Shown piece after piece: positions 18,188-44,537 of a stretch of DNA of 64,000 nt (its first letter is position 1; each line of letters starts with the position of its first letter). A program made the position numbers and the translations under genes. Under the pieces are notes generated by a model. That model was not told the DNA's origin, made no database searches, and saw nothing but the letters and a program-made list of their open reading frames with translations. This DNA comes from Halorubrum xinjiangense (GTDB lineage Archaea > Halobacteriota > Halobacteria > Halobacteriales > Haloferacaceae), in the NCBI RefSeq assembly GCF_900102375.1, contig NZ_FNBO01000001.1:372001-436000 (forward strand). Reading direction: 5' to 3'.

Positions 18188-18277
18188 AAACGGAACGCGG
18201 CACGCGGACGGTCGAGTTGCGGACTACGCCGTTTCCAGAAGCGACCGACCGCGACGATCACTTATAAACGAAACAGC

Positions 18278-18640
18278 GGTGGCGCGTGCCTGCGAGCGGC
18301 CGCCGAAGGCGGCCGCGAGGAGCACGCGCGAGGGACGCGGTGAGCGCTCGGAGAGCGCGAGCCGCGAGGCTGGGGAGGCGTGAGGTGCTGTGCGGTGCCG
18401 TGCGGGGCGGGGTTCAAACGGGCAGTCGCGAGGACGGCGCAGACGACGTAAGCACCGCAGCGAGCAGCGCGAGCGAGGAGCGCAACGAGTCTGCGCCGTC
18501 CTCGCGGCTGGGGCTTTGGAGATGTTCGTCACCGATCCGCGATCGCACACTTATAAGCAAGCGGCTGGGGCTTTGGAGATGTTCGTCACCGATCCGCTAT
18601 CACTCATTTATAAGCGAGCGACTGGGGCTTTGGCGGTGTT
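18278..18640 (+). repeat. Structured dispersed repeat, copy 1 (with tandemly repeated 3' tail)
   Basis: First of four related non-coding elements. It opens with GGTGGCGCGTGC (18278) 10 nt after TTATAA. Hairpin 1 pairs GCGCGTGC with GCACGCGC and, inside, GCGGCCGCC with GGCGGCCGC. Hairpin 2 pairs CGCGG with CCGCG and GCGCTC with GAGCGC. Block GGGGAGGCGTGAGG follows. Hairpin 3 has a 21-bp stem (18423-18443 with 18490-18510, one G-T wobble) enclosing the conserved blocks CGACGTAAGCACCG and GAGGAGCGCAACGAG. The tail GCGGCTGGGGCTTTGG is repeated with an exact 57-bp period (18504, 18561, 18618). It lies between convergent genes. I do not recognise it as a named element. Confidence 0.85.
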
Positions 18641-18660
18641 CCCTGTCGATGTACTATCGG
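18504..18660 (+). repeat. 57-bp tandem repeat of the element's 3' tail (about 2.7 units)
   Basis: Units begin at 18504, 18561 and 18618. The first two differ at few bases, and each of these two ends in a TTATAAG box (18551, 18606). The third unit has lost similarity after about 25 bp. The other three dispersed copies have a single tail. Confidence 0.85.
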
Positions 18661-18708
18661 ATTGAGCAGAATGGTCGATCAAGACCGCAAAACCGCCACC
18701 GGCCGCAT

Positions 18709-19078
18709 CTTGACATCCTCTCCGCCCTGAATGGCGAAGATTCCCACGGCACCGCACCGCTGAGTTGGGATGTTTATGGGTTGTAGCGGCCTCGAAAGAC
18801 GGCTACTGGCTGTGCCAACCAGCCGTTACTCCTATCCCGGCATGGGATTCAGAGATACTTTTCCTGCCTACATCCCGAAATCCACAACAGAAAGGGATGC
18901 TTTCTGCGTGGAATCGGAGAATCCCGATATTGTCCGATTAGGTGGGCGGGCAGGCCGCCTCGGTAACCTATTAAGACGGTAATTACTCACGTAAAACATC
19001 CGTTGAGAACATAGAGCGTGGCTTGTAGAGGGGTTGTCGGATTCATCCCCGCGCTGAAGCACGGGGCTTTCTCCTTGA
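18709..19078 (-). mobile_element. IS200/IS605 (IS1341-type) derived relic with omegaRNA-like end, no transposase
   Basis: On the minus strand one end carries TTCAAGGAGAAAGCCCC and the hairpin CCCCGTGCTTCAGCGCGGGG (19047-19066). The other end reads GTGGGAATCTTCGCC, then ATTCAGGGCGGAGAGGATG and TCAAG (18709-18745). From memory this is the hairpin and terminus found downstream of tnpB in haloarchaeal IS605 elements, where it forms the 3' end of the omega (guide) RNA. Only about 370 bp separate the ends, too short for tnpA or tnpB. The inside has short inverted repeats and no convincing gene. Best read as a non-autonomous, MITE-like derivative. Ends and family are from pattern recall, not a search. 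Confidence 0.6.
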
Positions 19079-19097
19079 ATTTCCGTAAGCGGTCGCC

Positions 19098-43792: not shown

Positions 43793-43868
43793 TGGGCCTT
43801 GCCGGATTTGAACCGGCGATCACTCCGTTATGAGCGGAGGGCTTTGAGCCAGACTAAGCTAAAGGCCC
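43793..43868 (-). tRNA. tRNA with CAU anticodon (probably tRNA-Ile2; elongator Met is the alternative)
   Basis: The cloverleaf on the minus strand is 76 nt. The acceptor stem GGGCCTT pairs with AAGGCCC, the D-stem GCTT with AAGC, the anticodon stem CTCCG with CGGAG around loop CTCATAA (anticodon CAU) and the T-stem GCCGG with CCGGC around TTCAAAT. Discriminator A; CCA not encoded. The GGGCC start is typical of isoleucine tRNAs, where C34 would be modified to agmatidine to read AUA. No intron, unlike the elongator tRNA-Met of some haloarchaea. Confidence 0.9.
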
Positions 43869-44428: not shown

Positions 44429-44537
44429 CGCCGAAGCCAGGACTCGAACCTGGGACCGCCTCGTGACTGTGACGGCCGGGGGAAGTTCCGCCGAGCGTCG
44501 TAACAGCGAGGCGCTCTACCAACTGAGCTACTTCGGC
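44429..44537 (-). tRNA. tRNA-Asn (GUU) with a 36-nt intron
   Basis: The minus-strand gene is 109 nt. The acceptor GCCGAAG pairs with CTTCGGC and the discriminator is G; the T-arm CCAGG TTCGAGT CCTGG is canonical. The anticodon loop (CTGTTA-A) is split after position 37 by nucleotides 44465-44500. The exon-intron border forms a textbook bulge-helix-bulge: CCTCG/CGAGG, 3-nt bulge TCA, 4-bp helix CTGT/ACAG, 3-nt bulge TAC, helix GACG/CGTC. Cutting after the second base of each bulge restores a 7-nt loop with anticodon GUU. Confidence 0.93.

Follow-up and report, generated by a model that had tools for sequence, protein, structure and literature searches.

A tnpB-less IS200/IS605-type element of Halorubrum xinjiangense holds a conserved relative of the TnpB guide RNA

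The window, i.e. the whole stretch of 64,000 nucleotides of Halorubrum xinjiangense DNA that was analysed, contains on its minus strand a small element of the IS200/IS605 type, whose parts are listed in Table 1. An earlier note had placed this element at 18709-19078 and had described both termini and a 3' hairpin on the minus strand. A reading of the sequence bears out these features, and an alignment of independent copies upheld the interval while shifting its ends to 18710-19084. Borders were fixed from the alignment of 50 loci with their flanks. The window copy is inserted after TTAC (minus 19088-19085) and its last bases are TCAA at 18710, so that the adjacent guide-like flank, rightly noticed before but given as 18690-18708, begins at 18709 and runs downward. 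Downstream of the right-end hairpin the minus strand reads GAGGATGTCAAG. As the earlier note had held for an interior of roughly 370 bp, no open reading frame in the interval is long enough for tnpB; moreover, TnpA and TnpB are absent within 1.5 kb of the element in tblastn searches with the TnpA and TnpB proteins of this genome. A protein-coding interior was rejected, since at most 6 of 37 copies have any given frame open across the RNA region. Beside the element, plus-strand positions 18250-18660 belong to a GC-rich intergenic repeat of about 400 bp that holds three 57-nt tandem units with TTATAAG and is present in great numbers both in this genome and in most genomes of the genus (a first look at this genome gave about 400 candidates, the best ones alone being scored). 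Elsewhere in the window, a tRNA match on the minus strand (44429-44537) spans 109 nt, which leaves room for an intron, and a second tRNA lies at 43793-43868.

Table 1. Parts of the element and of its immediate flanks, in window coordinates
Feature	Position	Strand	Basis
Whole element, 375 bp, tnpB-less IS200/IS605-type (PATE kind)	18710..19084	-	borders from alignment of copies at unrelated sites
Target tetranucleotide TTAC adjoining the left end	19085..19088	-	TTAC here in 34/34 left-end-intact copies
Left-end hairpin CCCCGTGC-TTCA-GCGCGGGG	19047..19066	-	sequence
TATA-like box TTTTAC (majority of copies: TTTTAA)	18991..18996	-	fixed distance, 45/46 copies
5' RNA module, specific to solo elements	18864..18965	-	model R1 match, pair counts
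omegaRNA scaffold, RF02656 sot0042 over the full model length	18719..18860	-	cmscan
Hairpin GGCTG-GTTGGCA-CAGCC, omegaRNA pseudoknot hairpin	18808..18824	-	99.1% of cells paired
Shortened stem-loop GTAGC...GCTAC	18783..18806	-	hairpin-to-3'-end distances
Right-end hairpin CTTCGCC...GGCGGAG, then GAGGATGTCAA	18719..18740	-	92.7% of cells paired
Guide-like flank 5'-GATGCGGCCGGTGGCGGTTT, outside the element	18690..18709	-	differs in every copy

The element belongs to a mobile family. Two further full-length copies with 78-80% identity were found in this genome by blastn, other copies reside on plasmids of Halobacterium salinarum (pNRC200/pHS2), Halobacterium hubeiense and Halorarius halobius, several Halorubrum species have many copies, and some match is present in 103 of 292 Halobacteria genomes, full-length relatives of about 370 bp occurring in many haloarchaea. 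In the main family, all 34 copies with an intact left end combine TTAC directly before that end with a terminal TCAA, and a sister subtype has CTAT and TCAC in their place, while the flanks of the aligned copies have nothing in common. TTAC and TCAA are the cleavage pair of the IS608 transposase, which served us as a lead only. Near-identical sets also speak for mobility: five copies of 371 bp, differing by 0-1 mismatches, occupy as many CTAT/TCAC sites in genome G038, and in genome G065 five TTAC/TCAA sites carry 342-bp copies that differ by 0-4 mismatches. One copy (L047) splits a gene that, once the flanks are joined, matches Na_H_Exchanger without a break over residues 2-368, and two copies (L257 and L028) sit within tnpB genes, the TnpB frame being restored when their flanks are joined. 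At the window site the element is missing from two syntenic relatives, but their intergenic sequence has diverged too far for the TTAC junction of the exact empty site to be visible, and the in-gene copies were used for the junctions instead. Target duplication is absent, a single TTAC being kept, and together with near-terminal palindromes and the lack of inverted terminal repeats this is the make-up of a PATE; the cleavage tetranucleotides, which are fixed at either end, and the mobility are likewise those of PATEs and of non-autonomous IS200/IS605 elements. A second, more divergent subtype without tnpB is also present in this genome (L105-L110, L112, L113), and several of its copies are near-identical and stand at contig ends, suggesting that it has multiplied recently.

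The last ~150 nt of the element match a known RNA scaffold. The covariance model search that the earlier note had asked for returned, with cmscan at a relaxed threshold, the sot0042 family (RF02656) over all 174 model positions on minus 18860-18719, at 70 bits and E 9e-18, well past what chance would give, and thus confirmed the suspected resemblance to the omegaRNA of tnpB loci. Both this copy and six other solo copies (53-77 bits) score below the sot0042 gathering score of 88 bits, for which reason we name the solo RNA a divergent relative of sot0042 and not a member. As in an omegaRNA, the scaffold structure includes a pseudoknot to the bases before the guide; the position at a tnpB 3' end that goes with an omegaRNA is not found, there being no tnpB in or beside the element.

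The structure is conserved. Folding of 18709-19078 as RNA gave z = -3.95, and conservation along the element is uneven, with 0.53-0.66 in the spacer after the left end, mostly above 0.8 in the 5' module and about 0.72-0.95 in the scaffold, where a level of 0.85-0.94 is interrupted by one stem at 0.62. On an alignment of 37 divergent copies (A1), 91.5% of the cells of the proposed structure hold standard pairs. Cells changed on both sides number 92, against 33 +/- 5 in shuffles, a control that inflates significance among related sequences, and at most 36 in slid structures, a control that preserves relatedness yet is biased towards a structure derived from the same sequences; under the same two controls the covariation score is 0.181 against 0.112 and at most 0.081, respectively. 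The pseudoknot joins the loop UUGGCA (TTGGCA, 18818-18813) to UGUCAA just before the guide (TGTCAA, 18715-18710) in 99% of cells, with compensatory changes at two pairs and co-changes in other subtypes. At the right-end hairpin, both-side changes are seen at four pairs.

Upstream of the scaffold, the element carries an RNA module of its own, composed of a GC hairpin (GGCGG/CCGCC), the motif TAATCGGACAATATCGGGATTC, the sequence about AATATC being invariant, and a second hairpin, which has a covarying stem and whose loop can pair downstream in 80% of cells; three outer pairs tried in the module are weak (59%). With its covariance model at E 1e-4, 144 of 391 Halobacteria genomes give a match, spread over 56 of 86 genera, while none of 28 tnpB-linked loci contains it (best E 0.26) and cmscan yields no counterpart in Rfam. 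By a strict pattern, the scaffold follows downstream in 25 of 30 module-bearing loci. At one fixed distance upstream of the module, TTTA or TTAA is present in 45 of 46 copies and is rare elsewhere upstream, and this box is kept even in subtypes with otherwise unrelated surroundings. We take its distance to be that of an archaeal TATA box with the transcription start at the module, which predicts a start near 18964-18968.

Comparison with guide RNAs that are linked to tnpB shows what has been trimmed. The hairpin-to-3'-end distance is 88-89 nt in the solo copies examined and 110-127 nt in 14 tnpB-linked loci, the greater length being due to the last tnpB codons, which fill the stem-loop there; the tnpB codons for NGWLAQP coincide with an RNA hairpin that solo elements retain as non-coding sequence. 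Within this genome, the nine sot0042 matches above the cut-off all lie at a tnpB 3' end, and eleven clear matches below it are without tnpB. A tree with seven tnpB rows separated solo from tnpB-linked RNAs with support of 97/90, which fell to 71/85 with 14 tnpB rows, so that a single origin of the solo lineage is likely but not certain. The 5' module, the promoter-like box, how large and old the family is, and the resemblance to HgcC described below all go beyond the earlier note.

The proteins that the element lacks are encoded elsewhere in the genome, which has six Y1 TnpA and 25 TnpB matches. Elements of this genome that bear TnpA or TnpB have left ends resembling that of the solo element. 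In a TnpA element, both copies of which are truncated by contig ends, TTAC again precedes the similar left end, and a complete TnpB element (C4:146.3-147.8 kb), whose TnpB has 433 aa, has both ends and TTAC in common with the solo element. Among 26 solo-bearing genomes tested, TnpB was found in all and TnpA in 22. Since tnpB is so common in haloarchaea, this co-occurrence is weak evidence that permits use in trans and does not prove it, and in the four genomes in which TnpA was undetected mobility is unexplained or past. Searching this genome for targets of the flank, as had been proposed, gave no TTAC-flanked match elsewhere with up to three mismatches. In the window the flank is preceded by TCAA and not by TTAC, so that the occupied site itself would be spared. 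A conserved, domesticated guide was rejected as the flanks differ among copies.

Taken together, we regard this as probably a non-autonomous element that produces a guide RNA of its own and draws on TnpA and TnpB supplied in trans, which is the best reading of the data. The hedged proposal of an orphan omegaRNA in a MITE-like, tnpB-less IS200/IS605 element thus stands, the scaffold being complete, its structure conserved and the family mobile, and it agrees with all tests run; the solo guide-RNA locus and the MITE that the note had offered as alternatives both apply, the element being both at once and the choice between them falling away.

Other readings have to be weighed against this one. 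Single-stranded DNA hairpins are the substrate of TnpA, and DNA folds give the same base pairing, so the conserved interior could act as single-stranded DNA in transposition and not as RNA. To our knowledge, however, end hairpins and tetranucleotides suffice for TnpA in IS608 and ISDra2, and neither a conserved interior nor a promoter-like box at a fixed distance follows from what TnpA needs; as the matched model, in addition, describes a family of transcribed RNAs (PMC8303175), we hold this to be the least probable of the readings. Hardly more probable is that the RNA guides a protein other than the resident IS1341-type TnpB. The 5' module, which is specific to solo elements and unlike anything in Rfam, leaves room for such a partner to be recruited through it, its lack of a known omegaRNA counterpart making another protein possible, but no candidate gene travels with the elements, whose flanks differ from copy to copy.

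The element might also be a plain deletion derivative that lost the tnpB core and kept the omegaRNA part as the right end required by TnpA, with no RNA function. Core-deletion PATEs have been described (PMC3119063) and a 52-bp element of fused ends is present in a Halorubrum virus record, yet the interior is a conserved module that is missing from tnpB loci and not tnpB-derived, for which reason a core-deletion remnant was rejected as the main reading. Moreover, scaffold sequence far from the right end covaries and is conserved as much as the end itself, and the solo RNAs cluster apart from those linked to tnpB, all of which makes this origin improbable. Somewhat less improbable, though still unlikely, is a decoy or regulator: with a TnpB-facing scaffold unchanged in kind, an altered stem-loop, an extra 5' module and two copies inside tnpB genes, the solo RNA might occupy TnpB or block it with an inert guide and so shield the host or the element. 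Against this, nothing that guiding needs has been lost: the pseudoknot still stands immediately ahead of the guide, and the 3' flank is free-running.

Under the preferred reading of a guide RNA served in trans, the Y1 TnpA of another element would move the solo element into TTAC sites. A promoter of archaeal type, conserved and placed directly inside the left end, would then drive an RNA of about 255 nt, made up of the 5' module and the trimmed omegaRNA scaffold and running past the right end, so that its 3' end in the flanking sequence would be the guide. TnpB of a resident IS1341-type element would bind this RNA in trans and, with TTAC at the left end serving as TAM, would cut copies of the insertion site that are free of the element (TTAC plus guide) on the chromosome or on a plasmid, whereupon recombination could restore or spread the element. 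The analysis shows the anatomy of the element, its conserved RNA structure, its mobility, the lack of tnpB and the TnpA and TnpB elsewhere in the genome; promoter-driven transcription, loading of TnpB in trans, cleavage directed by the solo RNA and any role of the 5' module are inferred. Retention or homing through a borrowed nuclease appears to be the most economical mechanism. Haloarchaea are polyploid, and a TnpB-based drive would therefore be favoured in them. For plasmids, TnpB has been reported to act as a drive for IS elements (PMC11870625).

The same arrangement may extend to HgcC (RF00062), a non-coding RNA whose function was called unresolved in 2017 (PMC5732400). The window copy scores 22.8 bits with the HgcC model and five other solo copies 31-36 bits, all below its gathering threshold of 50 bits. 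HgcC matches are present in 38 of 393 genomes of the phylum. In all 17 non-haloarchaeal HgcC loci (L307-L323) a hairpin loop is complementary to the last scaffold bases, in two of them with one mismatch; the loop/3'-end pairs are mostly CUGACC/GGUCAG, once GUGACC/GGUCAC and once CUGGUA/UGUCAG. HgcC flanks vary past the scaffold end, and HgcC loci and solo elements alike show the feature that we propose here, complementarity of a hairpin loop to the 3' end, beyond which the flank is variable. One genome (G411) has seven HgcC copies, most of which have in common a palindrome at the left end and a promoter-like CCGAAATGTTTTTATT, with no tnpB detected nearby by haloarchaeal queries, which may miss a distant tnpB. 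Divergent tnpB genes lie near HgcC in three genomes (G458, G439, G673), and in another (G523) tnpB is directly upstream on the same strand. At three loci (L315, L316, L319) the HgcC-type RNA is found immediately upstream of a divergent tnpB, which is encoded on the other strand, the usual place being the tnpB 3' end. We propose that HgcC may be an omegaRNA-type guide of small IS605-like elements.

Recurrence of the 5' module in more than one third of the haloarchaeal genomes searched suggests that tiny elements borrow the CRISPR-like cutter of their neighbours. We would give about even chances to the broader view that a widespread class of non-autonomous archaeal elements, HgcC included, carries only a promoter-driven TnpB guide RNA and relies on TnpB and TnpA in trans. 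If so, RNA-guided TnpB would be a shared resource, with very small transposons keeping a guide RNA and using a foreign nuclease, and guide and effector would be separated much as in CRISPR arrays. The trimmed solo scaffolds would then be natural miniature guide RNAs, and the link to HgcC, if true, would provide that RNA with a directly testable function and account both for its presence in multiple copies and for the variation at its 3' ends. Our search of the open-access literature found no paper that connects PATEs or HgcC with guide RNAs of TnpB.

Among known systems, the PATEs of haloarchaea come closest in form. According to PMC3119063 they lack terminal inverted repeats and target duplication, have near-terminal palindromes and IS605-like ends and are too short for a transposase, all of which the solo element shares; they are described as non-coding, and the text examined mentions no guide RNA, promoter or conserved RNA structure, whereas the interior of the solo element reads as an RNA gene. 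The Halorubrum halovirus HRTV-DL1 carries a 489-bp PATE of which one end (about 300 bp) is strongly transcribed (PMC10544981), and this PATE was rejected as an expressed family member since the virus record examined has no blastn match with the element. In a Halorubrum tailed virus (OP630575.1, near 16050; L125, ~1548-1598) an element of about 50 bp consists of fused left and right ends only and resembles the terminal-only PATEs that have been described. With the omegaRNA or sotRNA of haloarchaeal IS1341-type TnpB elements (RF02656, PMC8303175, PMC12558985) the solo RNA shares the full-length scaffold, the hairpin, the pseudoknot, the TCAA end and the flank as guide. It differs in the absence of tnpB, the shortened stem-loop, the extra 5' module, the score below the cut-off and a promoter-like box of its own, where tnpB-linked omegaRNAs are processed from tnpB mRNA, the sotRNAs of H. 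salinarum being mainly processing products of tnpB transcripts (PMC8303175). HgcC of hyperthermophiles, finally, resembles the solo elements as a non-coding RNA with a loop-to-3'-end pseudoknot, a variable 3' flank and several copies per genome, and is set apart by a different left end and 5' part and by the tnpB that adjoins it in some genomes.
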